The notes beneath the pieces were generated by a model. It searched no databases. It was not told the DNA's origin and worked only from the letters and a program-made list of their open reading frames with translations. Made by a program: the position numbers and the translations under genes. This document shows positions 26,772 to 51,494 of a stretch of 64,000 nucleotides of DNA, one piece after another (the stretch's first letter is position 1; each line of letters opens with the position of its first letter). This DNA is from Desulfurispirillum indicum S5 (GTDB lineage: Bacteria > Chrysiogenota > Chrysiogenetes > Chrysiogenales > Chrysiogenaceae): contig NC_014836.1 in the NCBI RefSeq assembly GCF_000177635.2, positions 2,058,001 to 2,122,000 on the forward strand. Direction: 5' to 3'.

Positions 26772-27413
26772 TCACGAAGACAACCTGTTTCGGTACAGAA
26801 CCACAGCAGAAGCAGCAAAAAACAGGGCAAACATGATGTTAAACCTGCCACCTTCCAGGAGAACCAGCAGGGGTGATGGCAGGTACACAAAAAATGAAGT
26901 CCACAGCCACACCACCAGGGGATGAAAAAACAGTATCCATTTTGGAAACGGCGTACGCCCACGCAGAACCAGAACCATCAGATACAGCAATCCAGCGGCC
27001 ATAAAAAACGCATAGAAATAAAACATGGAAAACGCCGTGACCATGAGTTGCTCCAGAAGAACCGCATGGTCATCCGTACGCGAGACAAAACCAAAGGGCG
27101 CAAACATCGCGTGAAATACAGCGCCAAAAACAATAGCCGCCGCCAGCATGACAAAAATCACTGTTCCGCTGAGCGGAGCCGTTTTTGCCAGTGCCCTTTT
27201 GATGTGGTAGAAACCCGCTATGTAAAAAACCGTGGCCAGTGGCCCACACAGTGCTCCCAGGTGAAGGCGCCAGTCAGAAACACCGGACATGATCCGGAAA
27301 ATATCCTCTTCAAGGCTGGTTACAGGGGTGGGCGTGTAGTAAAAAAGCATATCCCCGGCATACATAATCACCGCCCCCAATAACCCCAGGAGTGCATAAA
27401 CCCATGTTCGCAT
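26772..27413 (-). CDS. Multi-pass membrane protein of unknown function
   Basis: The 213-residue protein has about six hydrophobic helices and few charged residues. Notable segments are MYAGDMLFYY, GPLATVFYIAGF and FHAMFAPFGF. It resembles uncharacterised membrane families such as DUF6796, which I recall only by pattern. It has a good AAAGGAG ribosome binding site and stands 36 bp downstream of the MFS gene in the same direction, so it is probably the tail of the siderophore-type transport operon. Confidence 0.75.
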   Translation of the reverse strand: MRTWVYALLGLLGAVIMYAGDMLFYYTPTPVTSLEEDIFRIMSGVSDWRLHLGALCGPLATVFYIAGFYHIKRALAKTAPLSGTVIFVMLAAAIVFGAVFHAMFAPFGFVSRTDDHAVLLEQLMVTAFSMFYFYAFFMAAGLLYLMVLVLRGRTPFPKWILFFHPLVVWLWTSFFVYLPSPLLVLLEGGRFNIMFALFFAASAVVLYRNRLSS

Positions 27414-27449: not shown

Positions 27450-28625
27450 TTATCCAGAAAACCTGCGCCGCATCGCCAGCCCGCCAGAGAGGGCCAGAAC
27501 CAGCAGCAGCACCGCACACACGCCATAGGGAAGTGTTGGGTTCATGCCGTACAGCGCCGCACTGGCCAGTGGCGCAATCACGATGGCGAGCCCCTGGACG
27601 GCTGAAACCGAACCAGCCGCATGGCCCTGTTCCGTGGCGCTCACCGCATTGGCTGCCAGGGCCTGAAACGCCGGAAAAACCAGTCCCATGCCCGCCGCAG
27701 CAATACCGTAACTCACGATCAGACCCAAAGACGCGGATACCTGGGTTACCGCACCAAAACCTGTAGCCGCAACCAGAGCTCCGCTGGTGAGCCATACTTC
27801 AGGTGCAACGGAACGAAACCGCATGACGGCAACCTGAACCGCTATCAACATGACCCCGACACAAGCCATGGCAGAGCCCGCTACTCTGGCCGCACTGGCT
27901 CCGTCGAGATTCAGGCGGTCAAGGGCAAAAAAACCGATACACGTCTGAGCGGTCACCACGGTACCCATGGCAAGCAGGGCACTCGCCAGTGGCAGGCGCA
28001 GACGCGGATCGAAAAGTCGCGGCGGAGCCGCTGAAGCGGCACTACGAGGTTCCGTAGCGGGCAGAAAACGCCACAGCAGCACCACCGCCAGCAGCGGCAG
28101 CACCGCCGCCATATACAGTGGCAACGTCAGGCTCCAGCTGGCCAGCATACCTCCGAGGAGCGGACCCAGCACCATGCCGATGGCATTGGCGGCGCCCAGG
28201 GACGCCATGGCTGAGGTCCGGGTTTCACGGGGAAAACGATCGGCGATCAAGGCCGCGCTGGCAGGGGGAACAGCCGCATAGAAGGCTCCGATCAGGCTGC
28301 GGCTCAGTGACAGGAGGGTCACGGTTACGACGACGCCCAGGGAGAGGTACAGGGCGATATCCAGCACCACCGCCAGCAGCAGATAGGCCAGGGCAAATCC
28401 GCCCATGCTCAGCAGCAGTATCGGCTTGCGTCCATACCTGTCGCTGGCCCTTCCCCAGGGGCGGGCCAGCAGCATCCACAATACGCCAGCCAGGGTGACT
28501 GCCAGCCCGCCATGCCACTCCGCCAATCCCAGAGCCCGTACCAGCGGGCCGACCACCGCGACAAAAGCCATCATCGCCGATACGCACAGGGCGTTGGCAA
28601 TCAGCAGCGGGCGCAGTTCAGTCAC
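27450..28625 (-). CDS. MFS transporter, YbtX-like position
   Basis: A 391-residue major facilitator with 12 hydrophobic helices. The loop 2-3 motif is GRASDRYGRKPIL, and a helix V segment (NAIGMVLGPLLGG) resembles drug-exporter class proteins. It starts at GTG 28625 behind GGGAGG and overlaps the preceding ABC gene by 8 bp. In Yersinia the MFS gene ybtX likewise follows ybtPQ; its role there is unclear. The direction of transport cannot be read, and export of a chelator after iron release is one option. Confidence 0.88.
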   Translation of the reverse strand: MTELRPLLIANALCVSAMMAFVAVVGPLVRALGLAEWHGGLAVTLAGVLWMLLARPWGRASDRYGRKPILLLSMGGFALAYLLLAVVLDIALYLSLGVVVTVTLLSLSRSLIGAFYAAVPPASAALIADRFPRETRTSAMASLGAANAIGMVLGPLLGGMLASWSLTLPLYMAAVLPLLAVVLLWRFLPATEPRSAASAAPPRLFDPRLRLPLASALLAMGTVVTAQTCIGFFALDRLNLDGASAARVAGSAMACVGVMLIAVQVAVMRFRSVAPEVWLTSGALVAATGFGAVTQVSASLGLIVSYGIAAAGMGLVFPAFQALAANAVSATEQGHAAGSVSAVQGLAIVIAPLASAALYGMNPTLPYGVCAVLLLVLALSGGLAMRRRFSG

Positions 28626-30429
28626 GGGAGTCACCTCCCGCAGCCACGGCCAGATGCCAGCTTTTGGCGCTCTGCTGGGCATTCCACATGGCCCGGTAGC
28701 GTCCACCGGCATCCAGCAGATGTTCATGGGTTCCCTGCTCCACCAGTTTCCCGTCTTCAAGAACCAGGATGCGTTCAGCCCCCACGATGGTGGAAAGCCG
28801 ATGGGCTATGACAATAACGGTACGATCCTGCACCAGCGTATCAATAGCCTGCTGGACAGAAAGCTCACTTTCGGTATCCAGCGCTGCCGTTGGCTCATCC
28901 AGCATGACAATGGGCGCATCCTTGAGGAGAGCGCGGGCAATACTGATGCGTTGCCGCTCACCTCCCGAGAGGCTGCCACCGATATCGCCAACCCGGGTCT
29001 GATACCCAAGGGGCAGGCGGCTGATGAATTCATGGCAGCAGGCTGCCCGGGCAGCGGCTTCCACTTCAGCATCCGTGGCACTGCAACGGCCCATGCGGAT
29101 GTTGGCGAGAATGGTATCGTCAAAGAGGTACACATCCTGGAAAACCACGGAAATACAGGCCATAAGCTCTTCGGGCTCCATGGCCCGGATATCGTTTCCT
29201 CCGATCATGATGCGACCCTGCTGGGGATCAGCATAGCGCATCAGCAGGCGCGTGATCGTCGTCTTGCCGGAACCCGACGGTCCCACCAGCGCGGTCAGGG
29301 ATCGCTCCGGCAGATGGAGATCAAGGCCACTGAGCACTGCGCCCTCCGTACCGGCATACTGGAAGCTCACCCCTTCAAAGCGCACGTCAAAACGCGTGGG
29401 CAGTGAAGAGGGCTGCAGGCATGGCAGCGGTTTCACCGCCAGCAGCTTTTCCACCTGTTCAAAACCCGCCTCCATATAGTCAAAAACCGCCGACAGGTTC
29501 GTCATGATCGCCAGGGGCTCGGAAATTCGCACCGTAATAATCAGCAGCGCCGCCAGCATGGCAATGGAAAGGCTGCCACCAGCGACCAGGACAACTCCCA
29601 GTGCCAGGATCAGGATAAGCCCGCCCTCAATCAGGGTCCATATAACCAGACTCGGCCAGAGGCCGGACCACTGGTTTCTGGCCTGGACATCCTGCAGATG
29701 CACCAGGGACTCCTGCAGGCGACGAGCCTTCACTCCTGTGGCATTGGCAGAGCGCAGCACCGCCAGGCCCTGGGTATACTCGATAATTTCAGCCGAAGTA
29801 CGGGCATGGGCAGCCGCCAGCGTGCGCATGCTTCCCCCCGAGAGACGCTTGCGCCACCGATAGAGGGGCACCGTCACCGGAAACAGCAGGAGCATGGCCA
29901 GAGCCAGGCGCCATTCAATCAGAGCCGTCGTCAGGACCACTACCAGTGGAACCAGGGCACTGCGCAAAAAGGTATCGGCCAGCATGCCCATGGGGGTGAC
30001 CACTTCGTCCACATTGCCCGCAATCACGGCGGAAAGCTCTCCGGTCCGGCTCTGATAGAGTTCTTCCAGGGGCATGAGACGCAGCTGGTTCCCCAGGCGC
30101 ACCCGAATGGCATGGGTAACGTCAGCCAGACAGCGGGAGTACCCGAAGGTGTGTCCGTGCCAGCGCAACACCCAGTCGAGCAGCGCAAAAAGCAGCATCA
30201 TTCCACCGGGAACCCACAGGGCATGAACATCAAAAGGCTCACGCAGCACCGCTGACAGAATCGGATACAGGCACGCCAGGGCCAGACCCTGAAAAATAGC
30301 CGAGAGCGCGGAACTGATCAACGATGAACGCAGCTGGGGTGCCCGTTCATCGGCTATCTGGATCATGCGCCCATAGGTTTGCCAGAGCGTGGGTATGCCA
30401 ATGCGCGGCATGGCGTCAGTGGGTGTCAT
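28618..30429 (-). CDS. Half-ABC transporter, siderophore type (YbtQ-like)
   Basis: The 603-residue protein has an N-terminal six-helix membrane domain and a C-terminal ATPase with Walker A GPSGSGKTT, signature LSGGERQRISIARALL and Walker B IVMLDEPTAALD. It has exporter-type (type IV) fold order, yet in YbtPQ/IrtAB systems such half transporters pair up and import ferric siderophores. It overlaps the preceding half-ABC gene by 14 bp, which argues for a heterodimer. The start at ATG 30429 follows AGGAGG. Confidence 0.9.
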   Translation of the reverse strand: MTPTDAMPRIGIPTLWQTYGRMIQIADERAPQLRSSLISSALSAIFQGLALACLYPILSAVLREPFDVHALWVPGGMMLLFALLDWVLRWHGHTFGYSRCLADVTHAIRVRLGNQLRLMPLEELYQSRTGELSAVIAGNVDEVVTPMGMLADTFLRSALVPLVVVLTTALIEWRLALAMLLLFPVTVPLYRWRKRLSGGSMRTLAAAHARTSAEIIEYTQGLAVLRSANATGVKARRLQESLVHLQDVQARNQWSGLWPSLVIWTLIEGGLILILALGVVLVAGGSLSIAMLAALLIITVRISEPLAIMTNLSAVFDYMEAGFEQVEKLLAVKPLPCLQPSSLPTRFDVRFEGVSFQYAGTEGAVLSGLDLHLPERSLTALVGPSGSGKTTITRLLMRYADPQQGRIMIGGNDIRAMEPEELMACISVVFQDVYLFDDTILANIRMGRCSATDAEVEAAARAACCHEFISRLPLGYQTRVGDIGGSLSGGERQRISIARALLKDAPIVMLDEPTAALDTESELSVQQAIDTLVQDRTVIVIAHRLSTIVGAERILVLEDGKLVEQGTHEHLLDAGGRYRAMWNAQQSAKSWHLAVAAGGDSRD

Positions 30430-32209
30430 GGGTGCCTCCTGTGGGCCGGATTTTTTGCAGGGACCAGCCCTGAGCCTGCTCATAGGTATTCCAGAGCCGC
30501 CGATAGAGGCCCTTAAGAGCCAGGAGCTCTCCGTGACAGCCCCGCTCGACGACACAGCCACCCTCAAGGACGAGAATCTGATCGGCATCCTGGACCGTGG
30601 GCAGGCGATGGGCGATAAGGATAACCGTCCGTCCGCGCATCAGGTGTGCCAGAGCGCTGACCAGGGCTACTTCATTTTCGGGGTCCGCAAAAGCCGTAGC
30701 CTCGTCGAGCACCACGATGGGACGATCCTGCAAGATGGCACGGGCAATGGTGATACGCTGACGCTGCCCACCGGAAAGGCGACCACCACGGTCTCCCGCC
30801 CTGGTTTCATAGCCTTCCGGCAGCTGCACAATGAAATCATGGGCCTGAGCGGCCCGAGCCGCCCGTTCCACTTCGGCCATGGTAGCGTCGGGACGGCCCA
30901 GGCGAATATTGTCGGCAATGGTATCGTGAAACAGGAACGTATCCTGGAAGACAAATGCCACATGGGACATCAGGGTCTGGGCGCTCATGTGGCGCACATC
31001 CACACCACCAATCCTGATCGCACCCGCGCGCACATCCCAGAAGCGTGGCAGAAGACGCGCCACGGTGCTCTTGCCGGAGCCCGAAGGGCCCACCAGCGCC
31101 GTCACCGTGCCGGCAGGCACACAAAAACTCACCTCGTGCAGAACATCACCGGATCGCTCTCCATAGGCGAAGCTCACCGAATCAAAGACAATATCGCTGC
31201 CCACAGGCTGCTGCGCGGACAGCGGCTCCGGCAGAGGCGGCTCGGATCGCAGCGACTGAATACGCAAGGCACTGCCATTGGCTTTGCGGATAAAACCACT
31301 CAGCCACATCAACGGAATCAGCGCCTCCGCCATACCTGTACCGATCAGCAGCACCCCCACCCAGACCGCAAAACTCAGACTGCCGGAAGCGAAGAGCAGG
31401 CTGCCTGCCACCAGCAGGGCTATGAGTGTGGGCAGCGGACTCAGCACGATCATGGCAAGACGTCCGCTGGTGCTTGACGCCTCCACCCAGTGCGCCAGGA
31501 CACCATGGAAGGCGCTCAAGGCCTGATGATAGCGTCGAAACGAGGTACTGCCGTCATCGAACGTCCTCACCACCGGCATGGCCTGCACAAACTCGATAAC
31601 CGCCCCGTTGATGCGTTCCCGTTCCGCGTCATAGCGTTCGGAAAGCTCTCTGTGATCCCGCATGGCCAGGCGCAGCACCAGGACACCAGCCAGCAGCACC
31701 CCCAGCGCCACCAGAGCCAGCCGCCAGTCGATGACCAACAGCACCACCAGGGTGACAACGGGAGCGGTAACCGAGCGCCCCAGCAGAGGGGTGCTGTCTG
31801 CCACGAAACCATGCAGGTCTTTCACATCATCCTGAATGACTTTGGTCAAAGCACCGGAGCCGCTGGAGAGAAGAAATCCCAGTGGAACACGGGCCAGGTG
31901 CTCCGCCAGCTCAGTGCGCAGCATTGTCTCCAGCCGGAATGCCACCAGGTGAGACAGGGTAAAGCTCGCCCCGCGCAGGATGAGCGCCACCGCCGTCAGT
32001 AGCAGCGCCAGCACCATCCACCGTGCCGGCTGGGGATCACTCTGCAGCAGTTCATGCACCACCAGCGCCAGGACCACGACAGCACCGATGGTTGCCATGG
32101 AACCGAGCGCCGCCAGGGCCATGGCACCGCGAATTCCCCCCATGACGGGTGCCATCACTCCCCAGATACCGGGTTTGCTCAGCATTCCATGGGCCAAAGG
32201 CGATTTCAT
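30416..32209 (-). CDS. Half-ABC transporter, siderophore type (YbtP-like)
   Basis: The 597-residue protein has six membrane helices followed by an ATPase: Walker A GPSGSGKST, signature LSGGQRQRITIARAIL and Walker B IVVLDEATAFADPENE. The DEATAFADPENE form is characteristic of siderophore-type half transporters such as YbtPQ and IrtAB. ATG 32209 follows GGAGG at 6 bases. It lies 25 bp after the large permease gene and is coupled to its partner downstream. The substrate is inferred from the neighbourhood. Confidence 0.9.
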   Translation of the reverse strand: MKSPLAHGMLSKPGIWGVMAPVMGGIRGAMALAALGSMATIGAVVVLALVVHELLQSDPQPARWMVLALLLTAVALILRGASFTLSHLVAFRLETMLRTELAEHLARVPLGFLLSSGSGALTKVIQDDVKDLHGFVADSTPLLGRSVTAPVVTLVVLLVIDWRLALVALGVLLAGVLVLRLAMRDHRELSERYDAERERINGAVIEFVQAMPVVRTFDDGSTSFRRYHQALSAFHGVLAHWVEASSTSGRLAMIVLSPLPTLIALLVAGSLLFASGSLSFAVWVGVLLIGTGMAEALIPLMWLSGFIRKANGSALRIQSLRSEPPLPEPLSAQQPVGSDIVFDSVSFAYGERSGDVLHEVSFCVPAGTVTALVGPSGSGKSTVARLLPRFWDVRAGAIRIGGVDVRHMSAQTLMSHVAFVFQDTFLFHDTIADNIRLGRPDATMAEVERAARAAQAHDFIVQLPEGYETRAGDRGGRLSGGQRQRITIARAILQDRPIVVLDEATAFADPENEVALVSALAHLMRGRTVILIAHRLPTVQDADQILVLEGGCVVERGCHGELLALKGLYRRLWNTYEQAQGWSLQKIRPTGGTHDTH

Positions 32210-32234
32210 ATCAGACCTCCGGACAGCAGCCGCA

Positions 32235-35200
32235 TCAGCGACACTCCGGTGACGATGCGCGCCACAGATTATCAACGGGAGCCCGCTCATAGGCGAAGCG
32301 TCCATCCAGGTACAGGGCGTCACAGGCATCAGTGGCATGGCTCTCCAGGCCACTCACCGGTTCCCCCCGGAGCTTTCCGTCCCGAATCACATAGCGCCAG
32401 GGCTCCAGAGGCGTCTCTTCCGTCTGCCAGCCACCCGCATGCCATATCCAGCGTTCTCCGGTAATCTGAAGTTCACTGCCACCACCCAGGCGCACATCCG
32501 AAGCCAGCGGGGGACCAAGCAGCCGTTCCGCGCTGGACGCTCCCACCTTCGCCCGCAGTGCGCTGACCGCATCGCCCTGGCGTACATCTGCCAGCAGAGC
32601 GTTCAGCTCACCGGAAGATTGAGTTACTACCAGATTCAGAAGCGCCAGCGGCGCATAGTCCACCGCCCAGCCCGATTCCGTCGGAGCACTCCGCAGCGTC
32701 GTCACCGGTATGGTGCTGGCTGCCAGGGAACGCGCCACCTGATCCGTGCCGTGAGAGAGCAGGGCCGACAGGGCACTGAGGCCATCTGCTTCCGCCACAC
32801 ATGCCAGGCCAAGGGCACCGGAGAGTCCGGGATTCAGCCACAGGGAACCCTCACCTTCGCGCACATCGCCGTCATCCAGAATCACCCGTTCCGCCAGGGC
32901 CCGGGCAATGGCCGAACGTCGCAGCCATCGCCCCACGCCACTCTCCTGGACATCCCAGTGGGGCGCTTCGGCCAGCAGCAGCCTCTCGCCCGACAGGCGG
33001 GTCTCGCCCAGTTCACGGGGCCACTGGAGAATGTGGGAAACTGGCGGAACGCGTCCCATGCGTTGACCAATACAGGCTCCCATGGCGTCAAGATCCTCGA
33101 CCACCGACGCCGCCATGCCCCTGCGGCTGCGATCATGCAGCAGCGTTACCGCACCATGATCATGCTCCTCCAGACCAGCCACCCAGGCATCGGTAAAATC
33201 CAGCAGGCCATGGGTCGCTCCGCGCTGGACATGAACGATCTCCTGCCCCCGGTGTACCTGTACCTCCCAACTCCAATCACCCGCCGCAGCCGCGGCACCA
33301 GCGGCCAGCGTGGAGGCGTAGGGAGGCAGAACCACGGGGTTCGGCAGGCCAAAGTGCTCCCGTTCTGCGGGAGTACGCAGCACATGGTTGGCATCAAAGC
33401 CCAGCCGAGGCATCAGGTCCGGCGCGTGCAGCCAGTATGCATCGGCGACCAGCCAGGGTGGCCGATGCTCAGGGTCCCAGCCCCGCGCCGACAGTGTCCA
33501 CTCCAGAGTCACCTGGCAACCCGTGGGAGGACAGTTCTCCAAAGGCACAGCCACATGGTGATGACGCACCTCGGCAACGACTTCGCGTCCCTCCACCATC
33601 GCTTTCTGAAAACGCAGCAGATCGGGCAGTGCAGCGTGCAGGTGTCCATTGTCGGAGCTGACCCCTTCCATGCGCCACTGCCCTGCAAGCTGCCGCTGCT
33701 GCGGATATACCTGCAGCAGCACATGCCCGCCAGCCACCGTGAAAGGAGCGGCCTGTCCAAGCCAGTGACGCTCCCAGGCGGCATCGTGGGCAAGCTCCGT
33801 GGCACGGCTCTCGTAATGACCCTGCGCCACATAGCGCTCAAACATCACCACACTGAACAGGGCCAGGCAGATTGTCGCCGCCAGGGCACCAATACCAGCC
33901 CGGCCACGCAGAGAGCGGCGAAATGTTTTCCAGCGCACTTTCCAGTGGTCATCGGTGCCCCGTACGACCAGCATGGCACTCAGGGCCAGCAGCAGGGCTG
34001 CCAGAGCCAGTTTGAAACCGCCGCTGACCAGCAGTTTCTCCATCCAGGGGCCAAGTCCCGTCAGCCCGGAAATATGCACGGGTATCTGCAATCCTATTTC
34101 CAGGGGTGGATAGGTCACCAGGTGGGCCTCATGGTTCACGATCATAATAAACACCGCCAGGATAGAGGCGGCATAGGCCGGCCCCGGACGGCGGATCAGA
34201 ATGTGCAGTAACAGGGTGAACGCGCAGATTTCCAGTAACGCGGGCAGAAGCACGAAGAACTGGTGCGCAAAGGGAAAGACCAGGCGCACACTTTCCGGTG
34301 CCACGAACAACGCCGTGAGAAGGCTGGCCAGAGCCGGAACCATGACCAGGACCAGGGCAATGCCTGCCATACCGGCAACCAGTCCGGCCAGGCGCACAGA
34401 GTTCGGCGCCGGTGCCGCGTCCAGCATCTGCTCAATACCACCCCGGCCATCCCGGCGGATGGCGAGGCCCACCAGGCCAGCCAGCATAAACACGATGATG
34501 AGATAGAAATTTCTGGAGAGCAGAGGGGTGACCAGCTCGGGGCGAGGCACCATGGGACCGTAGGCGTGCTGCACGCCATGGACAAACCCAGCCGCAAACC
34601 CCAGCAGCACCAGCATGCCCAGGGTCAGCCACATCCAGCGACGGTTGAGCACCTGGCGCACCTGCCACCAGGATTCACTGGCTGCGGCACGGCTCCACGA
34701 AACCGCCCCGCCGACAGGCCCCGGCAACACCTGTGGCCCTGGCCCCAGCTCATTACCCGACGCAACCGCCATGACTGCGCGTCCGCGCTCCAGCACCAGC
34801 CACTCCCGACGGACGCGCAGCAGGGAAACCGCCAGCAGCAGTGGTGGCAGACCGCACCAGATCAGACGATTCCAGATCAGGCCAGGGGTCAGGGCCAGCA
34901 GAGCCGTGCTTTTCTGGTGGGGTGTCCAGTTGTCGACAACCTGATACTCCGTCTCGGCAAAGCCGGAAGGATCGAGAATCGCAAAATAAAAGGGGTCCAC
35001 ATACCCGTCCTTGAGGATGATCATGGAGACCATCCAGAAACCCATCAGGGCAGCCGCCACCGCGAAAGGCGCGCCGAGACTGCGGCCGCGCAGGGCGGCC
35101 ACGAAATACAGAGAACCGCTTCCCAGGGCCAGGGGAATAATAAACAGCAGCATTCCCCAACCAAAGGCAAGCCAGGGGGTCGGAGCAAAGGAATTCTCCG

Positions 35201-35615
35201 GCACAGCGCCCATCCACTCCAGAACGGGTGCAATGGCAAAGCCGACAACCTGGGAACTGCCGATCACAATGGCAACGGCCAGGGCTCCCACAAAGCGCGC
35301 CCCCAGCAGCTGGCGCAGGGAAACAGGAGAAGCCAGCACCACCTCATGCAGGCCAGCGGCCTGATCACGCAGAATAGGCTGAGCGAACACCCAGGCCCAG
35401 ATAAAGAAGAGGAAAAACGACATCCCCGAAGACATGAGATAGACCAGAGCCGGCGCATTGCGGGGTACGTCCACCGCCCCCATATCGCGCAGATAATCAG
35501 CGTTACTGAGCACCAGCAGGAGATACCCCACCAGCACCAGATAGACCAGAATCACGACACCGCTGCTCATGCCAAAACGAAATTCATGCCAGGCTTCCTT
35601 CAGAAAGAACTTCAT
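32235..35615 (-). CDS. ABC-2 permease fused to a degenerate M1-peptidase-like periplasmic domain
   Basis: A giant 1126-residue protein. Residues 1 to about 570 contain two blocks of membrane helices of ABC-2 permease type (first block 20-350, second about 370-560). The remaining half has no membrane helix after about 590 and is probably periplasmic. The arrangement matches proteins annotated as ABC permease/M1 aminopeptidase. The M1 motifs are worn: no HEXXH is present anywhere in the C-terminal half, and the spot corresponding to the third ligand reads WLNPGLSG (about 926) where active enzymes have NEG. It should therefore be inactive as a peptidase. The start at ATG 35615 overlaps the ATPase stop (ATGA). 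Confidence 0.85.
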   Translation of the reverse strand: MKFFLKEAWHEFRFGMSSGVVILVYLVLVGYLLLVLSNADYLRDMGAVDVPRNAPALVYLMSSGMSFFLFFIWAWVFAQPILRDQAAGLHEVVLASPVSLRQLLGARFVGALAVAIVIGSSQVVGFAIAPVLEWMGAVPENSFAPTPWLAFGWGMLLFIIPLALGSGSLYFVAALRGRSLGAPFAVAAALMGFWMVSMIILKDGYVDPFYFAILDPSGFAETEYQVVDNWTPHQKSTALLALTPGLIWNRLIWCGLPPLLLAVSLLRVRREWLVLERGRAVMAVASGNELGPGPQVLPGPVGGAVSWSRAAASESWWQVRQVLNRRWMWLTLGMLVLLGFAAGFVHGVQHAYGPMVPRPELVTPLLSRNFYLIIVFMLAGLVGLAIRRDGRGGIEQMLDAAPAPNSVRLAGLVAGMAGIALVLVMVPALASLLTALFVAPESVRLVFPFAHQFFVLLPALLEICAFTLLLHILIRRPGPAYAASILAVFIMIVNHEAHLVTYPPLEIGLQIPVHISGLTGLGPWMEKLLVSGGFKLALAALLLALSAMLVVRGTDDHWKVRWKTFRRSLRGRAGIGALAATICLALFSVVMFERYVAQGHYESRATELAHDAAWERHWLGQAAPFTVAGGHVLLQVYPQQRQLAGQWRMEGVSSDNGHLHAALPDLLRFQKAMVEGREVVAEVRHHHVAVPLENCPPTGCQVTLEWTLSARGWDPEHRPPWLVADAYWLHAPDLMPRLGFDANHVLRTPAEREHFGLPNPVVLPPYASTLAAGAAAAAGDWSWEVQVHRGQEIVHVQRGATHGLLDFTDAWVAGLEEHDHGAVTLLHDRSRRGMAASVVEDLDAMGACIGQRMGRVPPVSHILQWPRELGETRLSGERLLLAEAPHWDVQESGVGRWLRRSAIARALAERVILDDGDVREGEGSLWLNPGLSGALGLACVAEADGLSALSALLSHGTDQVARSLAASTIPVTTLRSAPTESGWAVDYAPLALLNLVVTQSSGELNALLADVRQGDAVSALRAKVGASSAERLLGPPLASDVRLGGGSELQITGERWIWHAGGWQTEETPLEPWRYVIRDGKLRGEPVSGLESHATDACDALYLDGRFAYERAPVDNLWRASSPECR

Positions 35616-36499
35616 TCCTCTGCCCCCGTCAGACCTGCCTGGGCCAGCGCCAGGTGGTAGACATCTTCCAGACAGGCAGTGTGACGCCGGAAGCCCTTCC
35701 CCGGCGAAGCCTCTGCCTGCACCACAGCCAGGGTGCCATCGGGTACCGCACTGTAATGGAGGGCTTCGGGTAATTCGTCGCCCCGTGGCACCACCCGTGA
35801 CCACAGGCGATTTTCCAGACTGCCGATCAGTTCAGAAGGCGAGCCCTCCATCAGGATGCGGCCGTGGGCCAGAATGGCCAGGCGACCGCACAGGCTCTCC
35901 ACATCCTCCACGATATGGGTTGAAAGCAGAACCACCGCATCGGCCGCCACATCAGCCAGAACCCGGTGGAAGCGATTGCGCTCGGCCGGATCAAGCCCAG
36001 CAGTGGGTTCATCCACTATCAGCAGGCGCGGCGAACCGATCAGGGCCATGGCAATACCGAAGCGGCGCAGCATGCCACCGGAATAGGTGAAGACAGCGCG
36101 ATGGGCAGCTTCGTTAAGATTCACCCGCTCCAGGAGGATACTCACCTCAGCCTGACGCTCCCGGCGATCCGTGCGACCCTTGAGCCAGGCAAAGCGAGTC
36201 AGCAGGTCACGCCCGCTGACACCAGGATAGGCCCCGATATGCTGGGGCAGATACCCGAGCCGCTTTCGCAGGTGATCAGGCTGCGCCAGCACATCTATTT
36301 CATCCAGATAAATCTCACCCGCATCCGGGGCCTGCAGGGTCGCCAGTGTCCGCATAAGGGTGCTCTTGCCCGCCCCGTTGGGGCCCAGCAGTCCATACAG
36401 GCCGGGCCCCACTTCGAGATCCACGCCATCAAGGGCGCAGACACCGTTGGCGTAGGTTTTTTTCAGCCCCTGTACTCTCAGACTCGTCTCTTTTCGCAT
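35612..36499 (-). CDS. ABC transporter ATPase for the fused permease
   Basis: A 295-residue stand-alone ATPase with Walker A GPNGAGKST, signature YSGGMLRRFG and Walker B LLIVDEPTAGLDPAE. It belongs to the ABC-2 exporter type (drug or polysaccharide subfamily). The ATG 36499 has AGGAG 10 bases upstream; the longer frame runs through non-coding sequence. Its end overlaps the permease start, so both form one transporter. A palindrome with core CGGGAAG stands just upstream. Confidence 0.92.
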   Translation of the reverse strand: MRKETSLRVQGLKKTYANGVCALDGVDLEVGPGLYGLLGPNGAGKSTLMRTLATLQAPDAGEIYLDEIDVLAQPDHLRKRLGYLPQHIGAYPGVSGRDLLTRFAWLKGRTDRRERQAEVSILLERVNLNEAAHRAVFTYSGGMLRRFGIAMALIGSPRLLIVDEPTAGLDPAERNRFHRVLADVAADAVVLLSTHIVEDVESLCGRLAILAHGRILMEGSPSELIGSLENRLWSRVVPRGDELPEALHYSAVPDGTLAVVQAEASPGKGFRRHTACLEDVYHLALAQAGLTGAEE

Positions 36500-36513
36500 C
36501 GTAATGTGCTCCT

Positions 36514-36530
36514 GCGGGAAGGCTTCCCGC
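36514..36530. promoter_or_regulatory. Palindrome upstream of the ABC operon
   Basis: GCGGGAAG-G-CTTCCCGC is a perfect 8 bp palindrome with a 1 bp centre, 15 bp before the ATPase start codon. Its CGGGAAG core recurs in the receptor promoter region at 38914. It could be an operator or an RNA hairpin covering the ribosome binding site. Confidence 0.55.
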
Positions 36531-36610
36531 GATATTTTTTCAGCCGATATCTTCGGACACCGGCAGTGCCTGGGGTGACAGTATTGTCCCTCCGGCATGG
36601 TTTTCAGGGT

Positions 36611-36714: not shown

Positions 36715-38892
36715 TCAGAAGACATAGCGCGCTCCGACGCCAAAGGTGCGGGGGTCGCCATAGGCAATAACGCGCATACCCGAGTACATGCTGATATATT
36801 TTTCATCGGTAAGGTTACGTCCGTAAAGATAGAAGTCCCAGTCAGCAACCCGATACCCGAACTTCGCATCTGCGAGGGTATAGGCGTCCTGTTTCGGAAA
36901 TGGCTCAAGGGCAGTTGCATCATCGTAGAAGTAATGTCTGCCTGTGCTGGACACATCAATACGCCCATAGAACCCGTGAGGATGTGTATAGGCAACGCCT
37001 GCCCTTACACTGTGTGCAGGGGTCTGCTCAATGGTCTGCCCGTCAAAATTGCCACCACCCCAGTCATAATCGCGATATTTTGCCTTCACGAGCCCCACTG
37101 AAGAGTTCATCTCCAGCCCATGCACAGGGCGGAAGGTCACCTCGACTTCTGCACCCTGAGAGTAGGCTTTTTTTGCATTATCCGTGACGTACATCGCGCC
37201 GATGGATTTAGATATATGGATATCTTCTATATCCATATAAAATAACGATGCCGCAATGGAGCCCTGCCCGAAGTTACCCTTCACGCCCAACTCATAGTTT
37301 GTAGAGGTCTGAGGTTCAAACCGATTATCATCGGCGCTGCCTGCCATGGCGAAATAGTTAAACCCTCCAGGCATATACCCCTTTGACCACAGCGCATATG
37401 TGTTCCATGCATCCGCAAACTGCCAGGATATGGCTGCCTTCGGCAGAAATGCGTTCCAGGTCTTTTCCGCCTCCAGCTCATACATGGCTGGACCTGGCAC
37501 GCCCACGGGCAAGTAGTACATGGAGAGGTCAATTTCTTTTGTAATACGCTGGTAACGTCCACCAAAGGTCAACTCAAACTGTTCTGCAAAAGGGATAATT
37601 ACCTGACCAAAGGCAGCAAGAGTGTCTGAATCGGTTCGTGAGACGGCACTCATCTCCGAGTTTCCAAGGTATGCGTAACTTACCGGGTCAAAATCGGGGA
37701 ATTGCATGCCCATACGCCCTTGTTTGTGACGCTCGGCTTCAAAATAGAAACCACCCACCCAACGCAAACCCTGTCCAGCGTTGCTTGACAAGCGCAATTC
37801 CTGAGTCCAGCTGTCCACATCAAAATCACTGAACTGAACCAGACCTGCGTATAGCGGATCATTGCCAAAATCCGAGTCGTACTCACCATTGAACTGAACC
37901 GTTTTATTGGTCGTCACCGCATTCAGGGACACGGCATCAAATTCATAGGTCAAACCCATGCTTTGGGCATTACTTTCCGTGACCTGTTTGGTCGGCATAT
38001 CCACTTCCTGTTTCTTGGCATCATCTCTGGAAAAATCGCCAATAACAGCGCTGCCGGGTATGCCGATACCATTGATCCCATACTGCTGCGTGTATTCATT
38101 CGTCAACGAAAGCCTCGCGGTGAAACGATCAGTAGGAGTCATGGTCAGGTTAAGGTTCAGTCGCCGATCATTTTCCTTATTGAAATCACTGTCCATGCCG
38201 GCGGCTGTATTTTCGATCCATCCGTCATCCTGCCGGTACTGGACATTCAAGCCCAGAAAAAGCCTGTCATCGATCAGCGCACCCCCTGCGTTCAGGGCGC
38301 TTCGCATTGAGTTGAAACTGCCGTATTCGGTCTCCACCTTCCCTTGCCAGGTATTTGATGGTCTTTTGGTCACAATATTGATGACCCCGCCAATGGCATC
38401 TTTACCGTAAAGAGTACCTTGAGGCCCCCGCAGCACTTCGACCCGCTCGGCATTCATGAGCGACGCATCAAACCCTTCGATCCCACTGTGAGCAACCCCA
38501 TCAATATAGATCACCACAGGATTGTTGTTCGTGAATATAGAGGGATTCAGGCCCCGAAAATTTACCGCACTGGCCATCGGACCTGAGCTGGCCTTCATAT
38601 TCGGAATCTCCCTGATAACGTCAGCCACGGATTTGATGCCTTTATCCTCAAGCATTATCTCGTTGATAACAGTAATGCTCTGAGGGACATCAATGATGTC
38701 CTCTTCAATTTTATTGGCCGTCACCGTGATAGTCTGCAGGACGCTTACCTGCCCGGACGCTTCAGCATCCCCTTCGTTCGCCCAGGCAGCCCCTCCACTG
38801 AACCACACTACCAGTGCCAGAACCATGGGGACCTGACCCCATTTTCCGCTCCGCAATTGATTCGCACACCACACCTGCACATCATGTCTCAT
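36715..38892 (-). CDS. TonB-dependent outer membrane receptor (FyuA-like)
   Basis: A 725-residue receptor. It has a signal peptide (hydrophobic VPMVLALVVWFSGGAAWA), a TonB-box-like start (QTITVTANKIEED), the plug domain with VEVLRGPQGTLYGKDAIGGVINIVTKRP, and a beta barrel ending in the C-terminal aromatic VGARYVF. The plug pattern is that of FyuA and related siderophore receptors. The ATG at 38892 follows GGAGG. The gene is isolated from the ABC operon by a strong hairpin and stands downstream of the AraC-type regulator. Its ligand is unknown. Confidence 0.93.
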   Translation of the reverse strand: MRHDVQVWCANQLRSGKWGQVPMVLALVVWFSGGAAWANEGDAEASGQVSVLQTITVTANKIEEDIIDVPQSITVINEIMLEDKGIKSVADVIREIPNMKASSGPMASAVNFRGLNPSIFTNNNPVVIYIDGVAHSGIEGFDASLMNAERVEVLRGPQGTLYGKDAIGGVINIVTKRPSNTWQGKVETEYGSFNSMRSALNAGGALIDDRLFLGLNVQYRQDDGWIENTAAGMDSDFNKENDRRLNLNLTMTPTDRFTARLSLTNEYTQQYGINGIGIPGSAVIGDFSRDDAKKQEVDMPTKQVTESNAQSMGLTYEFDAVSLNAVTTNKTVQFNGEYDSDFGNDPLYAGLVQFSDFDVDSWTQELRLSSNAGQGLRWVGGFYFEAERHKQGRMGMQFPDFDPVSYAYLGNSEMSAVSRTDSDTLAAFGQVIIPFAEQFELTFGGRYQRITKEIDLSMYYLPVGVPGPAMYELEAEKTWNAFLPKAAISWQFADAWNTYALWSKGYMPGGFNYFAMAGSADDNRFEPQTSTNYELGVKGNFGQGSIAASLFYMDIEDIHISKSIGAMYVTDNAKKAYSQGAEVEVTFRPVHGLEMNSSVGLVKAKYRDYDWGGGNFDGQTIEQTPAHSVRAGVAYTHPHGFYGRIDVSSTGRHYFYDDATALEPFPKQDAYTLADAKFGYRVADWDFYLYGRNLTDEKYISMYSGMRVIAYGDPRTFGVGARYVF

Positions 38893-38913
38893 CCACAACC
38901 TCCATGAAGTCTC

Positions 38914-39176: not shown

Positions 39177-40178
39177 CTACCTGATGCAGTTGGAGGGAAG
39201 CCGGCCATGGAACTGTCTGAAGGCACCGCTGAAATGCCCCGGACAGGAGTATCCCACCATCAGGGCCACCTCCAGCACCGAGTGCTCACCGGTCTCCAGC
39301 AATTCCAGGGCCTTCTGCATGCGCAGCTTGCGCACATACTCGCCAATGGTCATGCCAAGGCGCTGGCGGAAGCCGGTTTTCAGGTAACATTCATTGAGGG
39401 CAACCCGGCGGGCAAGGGCCGCGATGGTTGGCGGATCAACCCATTCGCTGCACAGGATATCCACCGCCTCGTCAATGGCGACACTGCGACGACTGCCACC
39501 ACAGTGACGGCGGGTTTCTTCCGCAGAGATATCAAGCCCCAGAAAGACGGCCAGGATATCCAGAGCCTGGGACTCAAGACGCAATTCGTCACAAACATCA
39601 CTGCAGGATTGTGCAAGCAGACGAGTGGCCAACCGGCTGATGGTCGGACGATGGTGTGTCAGGCGCATGCAGACGGCAGGATCACGGGAAAGCAAGGCGT
39701 CCAGGTTGCGACTGAAACGCTGCGGAAGCTGCTCACGCCATTGATCAAGCACATGAACAGGTATATCCAGTGAGAGCCCGCGCATGGTAGTGTGAGGCTG
39801 GTGGCGGTAACGGACTTCCTCAACACGGCCACTGCACAGCCACAGGTCACCAGCCTGCACCTGTTCTGAGAGCCCAAGCTCGGGGATACCCAGCTGAAAG
39901 CCGCCACAGAGCAGCATATTAAAACCAAGGTTGCAGCTGAAATTTGGATAGCTGTACTCATGAGGAGAGTGGATGACGCAATCACAACGCCCAAGGGAAA
40001 TCCCATCACGCAGCTCACGTATATCCATCCAGCCACGCCCGACTTGGGGCGACACGCCAGCGCGCAGACAGGTACCCCGAGACTCCCGTCGATCGTGCTG
40101 CACCACAAAAAAACCCCGATCTTCGTAGAGTGTTCGGCATTGGTCCAGAATCGTCACATCCGGCGGGTCTTTTTCCAC
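39177..40178 (-). CDS. AraC-family transcriptional regulator (PchR/YbtA-like)
   Basis: The 333-residue protein has a variable N-terminal ligand domain and a C-terminal double helix-turn-helix: IAALARRVALNECYLKTGF is the first, VLEVALMVGYSCPGHFSGAF the second, both typical of AraC. PchR and YbtA of this size sense ferric siderophores and activate receptor and uptake genes, as the neighbours here suggest. I chose GTG 40178, exactly 6 bases after AGGAGG, over ATG 40205, which lacks a ribosome binding site. Confidence 0.9.
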   Translation of the reverse strand: MEKDPPDVTILDQCRTLYEDRGFFVVQHDRRESRGTCLRAGVSPQVGRGWMDIRELRDGISLGRCDCVIHSPHEYSYPNFSCNLGFNMLLCGGFQLGIPELGLSEQVQAGDLWLCSGRVEEVRYRHQPHTTMRGLSLDIPVHVLDQWREQLPQRFSRNLDALLSRDPAVCMRLTHHRPTISRLATRLLAQSCSDVCDELRLESQALDILAVFLGLDISAEETRRHCGGSRRSVAIDEAVDILCSEWVDPPTIAALARRVALNECYLKTGFRQRLGMTIGEYVRKLRMQKALELLETGEHSVLEVALMVGYSCPGHFSGAFRQFHGRLPSNCIR

Positions 40179-40205
40179 AACGGCCCTCCTGTACTCAGGG
40201 TTCAT

Positions 40206-40503: not shown

Positions 40504-41268
40504 TCAGGGGATACTGAAGGTAAGGGTGGCGGCGTAGGTATGATAATCACAGACCCGCTTATCGGGATAATCCTCTTGATGGCTGACTTTGATGAGAAAT
40601 TCTCCGGCACTCCCCGGGACAAGAGCCAACCGGCCCGACGGATCGGCTTTGATTTTACGGGATTCCAGTTCGCCTTCACCCTTGCGAAAAAAGATTTCGG
40701 CTTCCGCTGCCGCCAGGGGCTCGCCATTGAAGAGGACCACAATCTCAATGGACTGGTCAGAGCTATACGAAACGGCGGTATGGGGTATCAGTTCAAGCTG
40801 GTGCCCTACGGGAGAGGTCATCTGCGTTTCATCCAGCACGGCATCGCCCGCAATCAGCAGTCGCTTGCCGAACATCTGGGCCTGTGAGCAGTAAAGAGCG
40901 CCCAGTACATCACGTTTTGTGGCCTGACGCCATCCAGCCGGGTTTCGCGTCCAGTAGGTCGGGCGATAGGTGGCAGCCACATAGTAGGTTCCCGGCGCCA
41001 CACCCTCAGGGAGCACGTAGCGATAGTTTTCCCCTTCCTGAATCATCTCCACGCTTTCCCCACTGCCGAAAACCTTCATGGGCGGGAAAATATGGACCCG
41101 GTCCTCCGCGATGGCCTCCGCCACGGGGAAGTCGTGACCATAGCCCAGTTCCGCCGTGAGTGATGTGCCGGACTCGCTGGCATTGACCCACAGATCATGG
41201 GCACAGACTCCGGTAGCAAGCAGGCCCGCCAGCAGTACGGGTGCCGTAAATGTGTTCAGCAGACGCAT
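40504..41268 (-). CDS. DUF4198 periplasmic protein (NikM-like domain family)
   Basis: The 254-residue protein has a signal peptide (cleavage near CAHD) and starts its mature part with HDLWVNA, the DUF4198 hallmark where the N-terminal His can bind metal. The C-terminal half (EIVVLFNGEPLAAAEAEIFF) has the repeating beta pattern of this family. Members often sit beside TonB receptors and nickel or cobalt systems and may receive the metal in the periplasm. It follows the siderophore receptor gene by 17 bp, with AAGGAG before its ATG, so both are cotranscribed. Confidence 0.85.
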   Translation of the reverse strand: MRLLNTFTAPVLLAGLLATGVCAHDLWVNASESGTSLTAELGYGHDFPVAEAIAEDRVHIFPPMKVFGSGESVEMIQEGENYRYVLPEGVAPGTYYVAATYRPTYWTRNPAGWRQATKRDVLGALYCSQAQMFGKRLLIAGDAVLDETQMTSPVGHQLELIPHTAVSYSSDQSIEIVVLFNGEPLAAAEAEIFFRKGEGELESRKIKADPSGRLALVPGSAGEFLIKVSHQEDYPDKRVCDYHTYAATLTFSIP

Positions 41269-41285
41269 AAGAACTCCTTATTGAT

Positions 41286-43409
41286 TCAGAATTGGTAGGT
41301 TACCTGAAGGGTATAGTTACGCGGCGCTCCCGGGGTAACCCAGTGCTCCCAGTAGGAGGCCGTGTAATACTCCTTGTCCAGGAGGTTGTCGATGATAAAG
41401 GCGACTTCCATATCAGGTCGCGGTTTATAGGCGGCGCGAACGTGCACCGTGGAATACGAGGGCAGAGTAAAGTCGGTATTGCTCTGGTTGCCCACCCGCG
41501 AATCCACATACACAATACCACCGCCGATGCTGGCATCCCTGTCGGCCAGTTTCCATCCGTAATTGGTCAGCAGACTGGCCTGGTTGCGGGGCACATTATT
41601 CAGGCGGGTATCCTGGCTGAAGGTAACCCCGTCAGCCACTATATGGGCATCGGTATAGCTGTAGCTGAAGCTGGCACTGAGGCTTTCGGTGATTTTCCCG
41701 TTCACATCCAGCTCAATTCCCCTGCTTCTGACCTCGCCAGCGGTCACCGAGAAGGCGGCGTCAACGGGGTCGCGGGTAAGCACGTTCTCTTTGGTAATCT
41801 GAAAGAGACTGGCGTCCAGGGAGAGTCCACCGGGCAGTGTGGTCTTCAGGCCAATGTCGTAGGAAGTGGAGGTTTCGGGATCAAACTGGTCGCCATGACG
41901 ATCCGCACCAGAGTTGGGATTGAATGCCCGTGATGCATTGGCAAAAACCGTCACCAGGGAGGTGAGATCGTGACTGACACCGACTCGCGGATTGACGGCA
42001 TTGTCCCTTTGGGATGCCTTCACCCCCGTCTGGAGATTTTTCGTCTCCTGCTCAAAGCGGTCGAAGCGTCCGCCCACCAGCACACGGGTCGCATAGTTCA
42101 CATGAATGAGATCCTGCACGTAGAAGGCGAGGGTATCCTCAGCATCCTCGCGCTGATTGGTCCGCGAATCGTCGAAGGGTATGGGCCCGCTACCGTAAAC
42201 CGGATTGTAAATATTGAACGCGTAGGGATCAGACGCGTTGGCCTGCGTGCGGGCACTGCGCCGCATGAGAAAGTCCTGTTCGTATCGGCTCAGCTCGGCC
42301 CCCAGCAGCAGGTCATGGCGCAGTCCGGAAAGCTCCACACTGCCACGGATCTCCGCTGAAGCCACCAGATCATCGCTCTCATAATCGCGGTGACGCCGTT
42401 CGCGAATCAGGTAGCCATCGCTTTGGCCCATGGCCTCAGTGGAATCGCCCTTCATCGTGCTGTGCATATGGGCCAGAGTCAGTTGGCTGGACCAGTTCTC
42501 GCTGAGATCAGCCTGAAAACGCAGACGATTTGCCTGGGTCCTGAGAGTGATGTCGCCATCATCGGGCTCATTGAGAAAGCGCGTCACCGGTACCACACCG
42601 AGCCTGTTATCCACCGCCATGACCCCACGGTCAAGGGGGCGCTTCTGTTGGGAAAATTCGCCATCATAGTGCACACGCGCGTTGTCGGAAAGAATCCATG
42701 AGAAAGCTGGTGCCACCACAAAGCGATTTTCACTGACATGATCCCGGAAGGTATCGCCATCCTCAACCGCCACACTGATCCGGCCGGCAATGGAATCACT
42801 CAGAGGCCCAGTGTAATCGAAGGTCGCCCGATGGGGCTTATCACTGGAGGCAGCCAGCGTTACCTCGCCGGATGACTCAAAGCTGGGGCGCTTGGTCACA
42901 ATATTCACCGCTCCACCGGGATCAGCTCTGCCGATCAATGCCGAAGACGACCCCCGCAGAATTTCAATACGCTCAAGGTTGACAGCATCCTGTTTGCCTG
43001 TATACCCGCGGTTAGCCCGTACACCATCCCGCAGAAAAACCGGCCCCCGGTTGATATCACCTTCGAAACCCCGGATGGAATAGTTGTCCCACATTCCGCC
43101 GAAATCGTTTTGAGAAGACACCCCGCTGACAAAGGGCAAAGCATCGCCCATGCGCGTGGCACCCAGGTGTTCAAGCATCTGTGGCGTCACGATAGTCACC
43201 GCCTGGGGCACCAGTGTCGGATCAATGGGCATGCCGGTCGCCCCACTCACTTCACTGGCCCGGTATCCGGTACTTTCATGCGCCGTTCCGGTAACGCGCA
43301 CAGGCTCAAGCTGTACTGATACCTTGGGATCATCCGCCTGTGCCGCCGTCACGGCAAGCAATGCCACTGCGAAGCCTGCCCTCCAACCTTCCAAGAACCT
43401 TCTTAACAT
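41286..43409 (-). CDS. TonB-dependent siderophore receptor (FhuA/FpvA group)
   Basis: A 707-residue outer membrane receptor with signal peptide (ending TAAQADD) and no N-terminal signalling domain. The plug carries the siderophore-receptor pattern DNYSIRGFEGD and IEILRGSSSALIGRADPGG followed by NIVTKRP. The barrel ends in LQVTYQF. The ATG 43409 is preceded by GAGGAG. A promoter candidate lies at 43454-43482. The DUF4198 gene is coupled behind it; ligand unknown. Confidence 0.93.
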   Translation of the reverse strand: MLRRFLEGWRAGFAVALLAVTAAQADDPKVSVQLEPVRVTGTAHESTGYRASEVSGATGMPIDPTLVPQAVTIVTPQMLEHLGATRMGDALPFVSGVSSQNDFGGMWDNYSIRGFEGDINRGPVFLRDGVRANRGYTGKQDAVNLERIEILRGSSSALIGRADPGGAVNIVTKRPSFESSGEVTLAASSDKPHRATFDYTGPLSDSIAGRISVAVEDGDTFRDHVSENRFVVAPAFSWILSDNARVHYDGEFSQQKRPLDRGVMAVDNRLGVVPVTRFLNEPDDGDITLRTQANRLRFQADLSENWSSQLTLAHMHSTMKGDSTEAMGQSDGYLIRERRHRDYESDDLVASAEIRGSVELSGLRHDLLLGAELSRYEQDFLMRRSARTQANASDPYAFNIYNPVYGSGPIPFDDSRTNQREDAEDTLAFYVQDLIHVNYATRVLVGGRFDRFEQETKNLQTGVKASQRDNAVNPRVGVSHDLTSLVTVFANASRAFNPNSGADRHGDQFDPETSTSYDIGLKTTLPGGLSLDASLFQITKENVLTRDPVDAAFSVTAGEVRSRGIELDVNGKITESLSASFSYSYTDAHIVADGVTFSQDTRLNNVPRNQASLLTNYGWKLADRDASIGGGIVYVDSRVGNQSNTDFTLPSYSTVHVRAAYKPRPDMEVAFIIDNLLDKEYYTASYWEHWVTPGAPRNYTLQVTYQF

Positions 43410-43453
43410 AACCACTCCTCATGAAATACGACGAAGCTCACTCCAGGTGGCAC

Positions 43454-43482
43454 AATTTACATATTCGTAGCACGATCGTCAA
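43454..43482 (-). promoter_or_regulatory. Sigma-70-type promoter of the siderophore receptor gene
   Basis: On the - strand TTGACG (43477-43482) is followed after 17 bases by TAAATT (43454-43459), which matches four of six -10 positions. The distance of about 45 bp to the start codon is suitable. Confidence 0.5.
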
Positions 43483-43886
43483 GACCCAATTCTGACTGGA
43501 ATGAGCAACGACAGAGCGGAACTCTGCTGTAAGTACGGTGCGAGATCATCATCTACGAGGAGGTGAGGAAGTGTTCAACTGCAGGAAGGTGGGCGTGGGG
43601 AAGCGCTTTTCAGTACCTCGACGGTGCATATGTCAGCAGATGGATCAATGCCGACCTGAAAGTTCATGACAGTCTCACAATAGAGGACATAGAAACCACC
43701 CGAGTCGCCATCATGAAAGCCATAGGGGGAAACTCAGGTTTCGCACCCCCGAAATAACGGGTTCTCGGCGTTTCTCCTTATGGCATGCAGAAATATGACA
43801 CTCTGACATGTTTCGTGGCAATCGTGGAAAATTGTCGGGATTTATGGCTACGTCCTGAGTGCTTTTCTCCCCGTTGTAAATAGACA

Positions 43887-43952
43887 TACTGCGATAGCGG
43901 CAGTATTCCCTTGGCCACACTGGGCAAGGCACTCCACACCGCTATCGCAGTA
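43887..43952. repeat. 66 bp element with 14 bp perfect inverted ends
   Basis: TACTGCGATAGCGG at 43887-43900 and its exact complement at 43939-43952 enclose 38 bases, which contain a second inner pair (CCTTG/CAAGG). No T-run follows. It lies just past the TolC-type gene end on the 3' side of that convergent-free gap and could be a hairpin or a small mobile repeat. Confidence 0.6.
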
Positions 43953-43977
43953 CAAGCATCTCAGTTCAAAACGCTTC

Positions 43978-45384: not shown

Positions 45385-45514
45385 AGAACACTTCCATTCA
45401 GGCCCTTATCAAGGCCGTAAATCTGCATTGCAATGCGATTGCACAAGACAAAAACCGGGTTCACACCACGGGAATCAAGCCGCCAAGAGGGGAGGCCTTT
45501 ATAGTAAAGAGGAT

Positions 45515-45621
45515 AAACCACGGAATACACGGAAAGTCCGGACAAACAGCCAGGAGTGGGAAAGAGTTTTTTGGAAAAAAAATATCCTCTCGTTCCGTGT
45601 TCTCCGTGCCTTCCGTGGTTT
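45515..45621. repeat. Inverted repeat element of the CCACGGAA family, copy 1
   Basis: The left arm runs AAACCACGGAATACACGGAA and the right arm is an imperfect complement ending in CCGTGGTTT; about 50 bases lie between. It occupies the gap between the TolC-type gene and macB and belongs to the same family as the element at 53972-54088. Confidence 0.75.
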
Positions 45622-45654
45622 CTTTCTTCTGCCTTGCCCCTTATGGCTTTTGCC

Positions 45655-48938: not shown

Positions 48939-49001
48939 GATTCCATCCTGTCCTGAAGATTCTTAAAGGCAGCACACACATCACACAAGTGCCTTTACGC
49001 A

Positions 49002-50750: not shown

Positions 50751-50838
50751 CAATAAACTCCTTTATGGAAGAGAGCGGACTCACGCGAACGTGTGCGTTC
50801 CTGGCGAACTGACGCCTTAAAAAGCCAGCGCCATCACT

Positions 50839-51477
50839 TCATGGATTGCTGAACGTGAGCGTCAGGCCGTAGCGGGTTCGGTCATAATGCTCACCCTCAG
50901 CGGTTTCGCCAGGCTGCTCATGGGTATGGGAAGCTCGCACCAGATACTGCCCCGCCTTGAGAGTGAGAATCTGCACCTGCCCCAGGGCATTGGTAGTCAG
51001 CTTCTGTTCCTGGCGATCCGGGTCGTAAACGGTAATCTCGGTGTCGGCCAGGGGACTGCCCTGAAACTGCAGGGCAAAGCGGTTTCCGTCGGGGACCATG
51101 GGCACGAGATCCAGATCCACCAGGGAGTTGGCCTGGGAGCGTCCGGCACGGGCCAGCGCCACTGCGCGGGTCACTTCCGTGCCGATACGGGCGCGGCGCA
51201 GTCCGGTTTCTTCCACCAGCGCCACATCGCCAGGAGCCTTGATGGTGATCTCGATATGATCGTCGCGGCGGTAACTGGCTCCCGCAATATCTGCGGGAAG
51301 AATCCCGGTGGCCTTGATATCGTCAAGCTTGTCACCGGTCTTTTCGTGAATACCGCGATGCCAGTAACCGAAGTAGGCCCTGGCAGAAGTTTCATCAGCA
51401 CGTTCAAGCCAGATATAGTGAGCGCTGGCGGAACTTATCAGCACAGCGATCAAAAGCAATGTCAGCAGGGTACGCAT
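50839..51477 (-). CDS. DUF4198-like periplasmic protein
   Basis: The 212-residue protein has a signal peptide ending ISSASA, then HYIWLERAD, so the mature N-terminus starts with His as in DUF4198 proteins. Later blocks (DGNRFALQFQGSPLADTEITVYD and the terminal YGLTLTFSNP) match the family's beta pattern, as in the larger relative at 40504-41268. It lies between the third receptor and the PepSY-flavodoxin gene, which suggests a periplasmic metal or chelate carrier passing to the reductase. AGGAGATCCC precedes the ATG. Confidence 0.82.
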   Translation of the reverse strand: MRTLLTLLLIAVLISSASAHYIWLERADETSARAYFGYWHRGIHEKTGDKLDDIKATGILPADIAGASYRRDDHIEITIKAPGDVALVEETGLRRARIGTEVTRAVALARAGRSQANSLVDLDLVPMVPDGNRFALQFQGSPLADTEITVYDPDRQEQKLTTNALGQVQILTLKAGQYLVRASHTHEQPGETAEGEHYDRTRYGLTLTFSNP

Positions 51478-51494
51478 GGGATCTCCTGAAAAGA

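Follow-up and report, generated by a model that had tools for sequence, protein, structure and literature searches.

The closest described systems to the locus analysed here are those for the uptake of yersiniabactin (FyuA, YbtP, YbtQ, YbtX and YbtA) and of pyochelin (FptA, FptX, PchHI and PchR). TonB-dependent receptors of this type bring the ferric siderophore into the periplasm and ABC pairs of the YbtPQ/PchHI type import it (PMC10967856, PMC10846271), with PchHI described as a heterodimeric pair that takes part in pyochelin uptake (PMC10846271). How exporter-fold siderophore importers like YbtPQ get their substrate from the periplasm is a gap noted in a 2024 structural paper, in which a periplasmic helper could not be ruled out and searches for one had failed (PMC10967856). 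In Caulobacter, a Zur-repressed system consisting of a TonB receptor and ABC-2 genes (znuK and znuGHI) has been proposed to act in uptake (PMC4176598).

The window, a 64,000-nucleotide stretch of contig NC_014836.1 from the bacterium Desulfurispirillum indicum S5, contains an operon that encodes, in the order of transcription, an AraC regulator, a TonB receptor, an ATPase, a permease, a YbtP-like protein, a YbtQ-like protein and an MFS transporter (Table 1). Measured against a yersiniabactin-type uptake locus, both the YbtP and YbtQ halves are present, each with its namesake as the best PDB match by a wide margin, and the receptor is FyuA-like. The NRPS genes of a yersiniabactin or pyochelin producer are lacking, as we found no condensation domain in the window's genome. 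Because of this, and because the only two chorismate-binding enzymes of the genome are both also found in its relatives, the organism probably makes use of a siderophore produced by others. The five genes from the ATPase to the MFS transporter (27450-36502) have a GC content of 60-64% vs 50-58% in their neighbours and our search of 50 other genomes of the same phylum returned no homologue, which together suggests that these genes were gained horizontally. Beyond the operon (40504-53899), further metal-related genes encode a DUF4198 protein, two more TonB receptors and a PepSY-flavodoxin protein, along with HlyD and outer-membrane efflux proteins that accompany an ABC exporter of the MacB type.

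Table 1. Features of the operon and of the permease, with positions in the window
Feature	Position	Strand	Basis or remark
AraC-family regulator, YbtA/PchR-like position	39177..40205	-	HTH_18
TonB-dependent receptor	36715..38898	-	closest solved structure FyuA/pesticin receptor, 4epa_A, 1.5e-39
ABC ATPase subunit	35612..36502	-	start about residue 33 of 35612-36598 frame
ABC-2 permease with C-terminal M1-aminopeptidase-like domain, predicted catalytically dead, 1126 aa	32235..35615	-	hhalign, Foldseek, Pfam sub-threshold ABC2_membrane_2
Predicted pseudo-M1 domain, about residues 599-1126	32235..33821	-	hhalign, AlphaFold, hydropathy, shuffled controls
C695-C700 pair	33516..33533	-	invariant in group, absent from active relatives
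E883, GXMEN-type exopeptidase Glu column	32967..32969	-	kept in 6/6 group members
HEXXH-equivalent R905-A906-L907-A908-E909	32889..32903	-	same register in hhalign and MAFFT; within predicted helix
WLNPG, residues 926-930	32826..32840	-	P929 in third-zinc-ligand column (hhalign, MAFFT)
Y987, catalytic Tyr column	32655..32657	-	kept in 6/6 group members
YbtP-like ABC importer half	30416..32209	-	best PDB match YbtP 6p6i_A, E 7.8e-178
YbtQ-like ABC importer half	28618..30432	-	best PDB match YbtQ 8vsi_B, E 2.3e-172
MFS transporter, placed as YbtX/FptX in related loci	27450..28637	-	MFS_1
DUF6796 protein	26772..27413	-	near operon

The permease is read from a single open frame (35804-32235, minus strand) with its start ATG at 35615, and the region 32235-33900 discussed in the preliminary description is the C-terminal part of this frame, from about residue 572 to 1126. 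The permease start and the stop of the DrrA/GldA-like ATPase gene share an ATGA overlap. Hydropathy indicates about 12 ABC-2 helices and a further helix, TM13, at 574-592. As TM13 comes after a strongly basic linker, the positive-inside rule would place the residues after 593 in the periplasm. A Pfam search with the permease gave only the sub-threshold ABC2_membrane_2 match and no peptidase. Single-sequence searches of Pfam, NCBIfam and the PDB with the domain likewise yielded nothing useful and left an M1 relation undetected; pyrophosphohydrolase and transposase matches were at chance level and were dismissed.

Relatives were gathered from Alkalilimnicola (52% identity) and a Polyangia MAG (41%) and through whole-genome searches, giving a main group of six members, hereafter the dead group. 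ABC-2 permeases that carry an intact M1 domain also emerged from these whole-genome searches, as a broad family that includes L006 (PF01433 at 9e-14). When profiles of the dead group and of 23 of these active M1-fused permeases, the set also used in our MAFFT alignment, were compared with hhalign, they aligned over nearly their full length, from residue 8 to 962 (E 1.5e-54). On its own, the domain still matched the active permeases (E 2.2e-8), as it did the C-terminal part only of the active proteins (E 1.4e-7). By these profiles its M1 relation is far above chance: 12 column-shuffled controls gave E-values of 0.075-0.93, a reversed alignment 0.62 and TonB receptors 0.44.

An AlphaFold model built from three sequences was of moderate confidence (mean pLDDT about 57), with pLDDT values of 70-90 over much of the saddle and catalytic core, and a second, cropped model was no better (mean pLDDT 57.6). 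Searched against the PDB with Foldseek, the first model had M1 enzymes in all 50 of the matches listed, such as ERAP2, LTA4H, ERAP1, Anopheles APN1 and Deinococcus M1 (E about 1e-9 to 1e-10, probability 1.00), and the matches listed for the cropped model comprised 49 M1 enzymes and one related M61 enzyme. TM-scores were low (0.3-0.5) because the models are uncertain in their domain packing. The predicted fold has the N-terminal saddle and thermolysin-like catalytic domain of the M1 family and differs from the two-lobed SBP fold of a classical periplasmic binding protein. Although the lack of Pfam and PDB sequence matches could be taken to mean that the C-terminal region is unrelated to M1 peptidases, hhalign with its controls and Foldseek make this extremely unlikely, and the fold search already refutes it. 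We therefore regard the C-terminal half of the permease as confirmed, at the level of profiles and predicted structure, to be a diverged M1 aminopeptidase domain. The protein thus combines the membrane part, M1-derived domain and ATPase partner of the M1-fused permease layout that the preliminary description had recognised, and the comparison of a predicted structure with M1 enzymes proposed there returned the M1 fold from both models.

The same description had reported that HEXXH is missing and that WLNPG stands where the third zinc ligand (NEG) would be, and both observations hold. No HEXXH occurs anywhere in the 1126-residue protein, R905 and E909 occupy the columns of the zinc-binding histidines, A906 that of the catalytic Glu, and P929, within a WLNPG that starts at 926, that of the third-ligand Glu. 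A register judged by eye, which put AIARA (902-906) below HEXXH, was rejected, as hhalign and MAFFT agree on R905-E909. In M1 enzymes HEXXH lies within a helix and the third ligand opens the next one; in the AlphaFold model residues 905-909 likewise belong to a long helix and the next helix begins at P929. Judged from this alignment, the domain has lost all zinc ligands of the HEXXH-X18-E site together with the general base and is predicted to be catalytically dead. The check on relatives in siderophore or TonB loci gave the same answer. HEXXH is absent and the zinc site lost in all six main-group members, the four ligand columns (His/Glu/His/third ligand) reading T, A, R and E in L002, E, A, S and R in L003, E, A, R and R in L008, E, A, R and W in L009 and R, A, R and D in G955, so that by these residues the usual zinc binding is possible in none of them. 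Of the features of an active M1 enzyme, the Glu of the exopeptidase motif (E883) and the catalytic Tyr (Y987) are present. Only 16 domain columns combine at least 90% conservation in active enzymes with invariance in the first five dead members; these two residues are among them, and the sixth member, G955, retains both. Most active-site columns are not conserved any more in the dead domains.

A tree of the membrane part, which is midpoint-rooted only, unites the first five dead members in a single, fully supported clade that has a long branch; the sixth shares 36-48% identity with these five. From the M1 family at large, we infer that the ancestor of the dead domains was an active peptidase. 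In two genomes (G052 and G955), a dead copy within a metallophore-type locus coexists with an active one located elsewhere. Further, we identified a second, separate dead clade of two members, L010 (G063) and its 82% relative L042/L068 (Alkalilimnicola G051), in which RALAA replaces HEXXH, an Arg stands at the third ligand and the Tyr is lost. In the draft assembly, the frame of the Alkalilimnicola copy of this clade is broken, and a TetR regulator lies beside L010. A plasmid search returned only weak matches to the N-terminal permease part and none to the domain.

The dead domains of the main group are also marked by gains. They contain 19-21 tryptophans (3.6-4.1%) vs 4-10 (0.6-1.7%) in active domains, about three times as much, while the permease halves show little difference (2.9% in dead vs 2.4% in active proteins). 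As the membrane halves are alike and the active genomes equally GC-rich, base composition does not explain the excess. Across the first five dead members, eleven tryptophan positions never vary, and several of these sites are mostly Phe or Tyr in active enzymes. The second dead clade has an ordinary tryptophan content, so this signature is not general to dead versions. These residues bear on an alternative in which the domain binds no chelate and persists as a relic with a structural or regulatory task, stabilising the permease or sensing load. Many pseudoenzymes do serve as scaffolds or allosteric parts, and the conservation gone from most active-site columns would fit such a role, but the invariant pocket Glu and Tyr and the eleven tryptophans invariant in the first five members argue for remodelling rather than decay, and we consider a relic improbable.

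Cysteines were gained as well. C848 and C939 are, member by member, either both present or both absent, and this pattern together with the C695-C700 pair suggests two disulfides. H660, H687, C695 and C700, all invariant in the first five dead members, fall in the predicted saddle domain and could be read as a new metal site by which the domain keeps some chemistry, if it does not act as a metal-free hydrolase, to release siderophore iron, a step that cells do need. However, 14 of 22 active enzymes likewise have His in the H660 column, so this residue is not specific, a periplasmic CX4C pair suits a disulfide, and no known catalytic set is formed, so we regard a retained chemistry as very unlikely.

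The dead copies also differ from the active ones in their surroundings. A TonB receptor lies within the stretch read at all six main-group and both second-clade loci (8/8 dead) and near active M1-fused copies at 2 of 41 loci, and NRPS genes stand beside four of the six main-group loci vs 0/41 active loci, counts that come from stretches several of which end at contig ends and, for the receptors, from a TonB profile built from these loci's own receptors. The Fisher values (1e-7 and 8e-5) are descriptive only, since clade members are not independent, and overstate the TonB association because it involves only two independent clades. Two intact-HEXXH M1-fused permeases, L112 (G959) and L045 (G378), have a TonB receptor nearby; the permease frame of L045 contains an in-frame TGA. 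Among the loci of the dead group, G084 and G955 have an NRPS with an embedded methyltransferase and a thioesterase, an Irp3-like thiazolinyl imine reductase adjoins the ATPase gene in G955, and the Alkalilimnicola locus encodes an isochorismate synthase, an AMP-ligase and a two-module NRPS. The combination of embedded-methyltransferase NRPS, Irp3-like reductase and isochorismate synthase with AMP-ligase points to thiazoline-phenolate siderophores. The Polyangia locus (L003/L014/L015) encodes a methyltransferase, CobW, an FAD-dependent enzyme and a TonB receptor, and the portion of it that was read shows no NRPS, a hint of another metallophore, perhaps one for zinc. A weak relative of the DUF6796 protein lies directly 3' of the dead-M1 permease there (L003 13141-13989).

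Since pocket residues are kept, catalytic residues lost, tryptophans gained and the context moved to metallophore loci, we lean on balance towards the domain being a candidate tethered periplasmic capture and hand-over domain for a ferric thiazoline-phenolate siderophore of the pyochelin/yersiniabactin class. The FyuA-like receptor would deliver the ferric aromatic siderophore to the periplasm, where the old M1 substrate groove, with E883, Y987 and the added tryptophans, could hold the aromatic chelate. The domain might then pass it on to the membrane part of the ABC-2 transporter or to the YbtP/YbtQ importer encoded next to it, and would thus act as a tethered stand-in for the missing periplasmic binding protein. 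The preliminary description had proposed a binding or hand-over domain for a peptide-like chelate; the residues, tryptophans and gene context favour this role, in which binding itself is what we infer, and the chelate can be sharpened to the thiazoline-phenolate type. To our knowledge, YbtPQ functions in Yersinia and Klebsiella with no known partner of such kind, which counts against the hand-over reading.

ABC-2 transporters are mostly exporters, as are usually those ABC-2 permeases paired with DrrA/GldA-like ATPases, and the direction here may be outward, which counts against import. Once iron has been released, the transporter could then export or recycle the apo-siderophore or some by-product, with the dead M1 domain as an exit guide or gate, and four of the relatives do belong to biosynthesis loci, which need an exporter. 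However, the window's genome has no NRPS or siderophore-type chorismate enzyme, leaving only recycling and not secretion as a possible task, yet the transporter is kept beside uptake genes. Further, the Caulobacter ABC-2 genes were proposed to serve uptake and share a Zur-bound region with a TonB receptor gene (PMC4176598), which makes an ABC-2 uptake role plausible by analogy. Taken together, we consider outward transport rather unlikely, and capture and hand-over during uptake remains our preferred reading.

The locus bears on the gap noted for YbtPQ because, alongside YbtP, YbtQ and a FyuA-like receptor, it encodes a large, tryptophan-rich and predicted periplasmic domain derived from a peptide-binding enzyme. 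Should this domain bind a ferric siderophore, it would represent a binding protein of a new type and a clear example of how an enzyme can evolve into a carrier within a transporter, for which the active copies in some of the same genomes are available for comparison. More tentatively, we suggest that an ABC-2 family may have recruited a dead aminopeptidase as a membrane-tethered siderophore binder, possibly as the periplasmic partner whose need has been suspected for exporter-fold importers like YbtPQ, and that a similar recruitment may have happened twice, given the second TonB-linked clade.

Finally, the window protein can be set against the systems already described. The active M1-fused ABC-2 permeases, an unnamed family (PF12679 and PF01433; L006 and 40 other loci), have the same layout and, where looked at, the same partner ATPase directly upstream; unlike the dead group they have HEXXH-X18-E and low tryptophan and lack the cysteine pairs. 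The dead-M1 permease is thus a new version of a known layout, and our literature search found no report of an M1-fused or dead-M1 ABC permease, although other literature may have one. A non-catalytic M1 fold serving in binding, like the role proposed here, is found in TAF2, an M1-like subunit of TFIID, which unlike the window protein is eukaryotic, nuclear and not part of a transporter. The Caulobacter system has a TonB receptor, an ABC-2 ATPase and permeases for metal acquisition, as in the window, with its znuGHI differing in having two separate permease genes (PMC4176598). Pyochelin (PMC10846271) and the enantio-pyochelin system FetABCDEF (PMC4956303) belong to the thiazoline-phenolate class proposed for the window, but the portions of these papers at hand make no mention of an M1-derived domain, and known siderophore importers of the YbtPQ type seem to have no such domain. 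The window operon resembles the yersiniabactin system in its FyuA-, YbtP- and YbtQ-like proteins, its MFS transporter and its AraC regulator; it lacks the biosynthesis genes and adds the ABC-2 ATPase and the pseudo-M1 permease.
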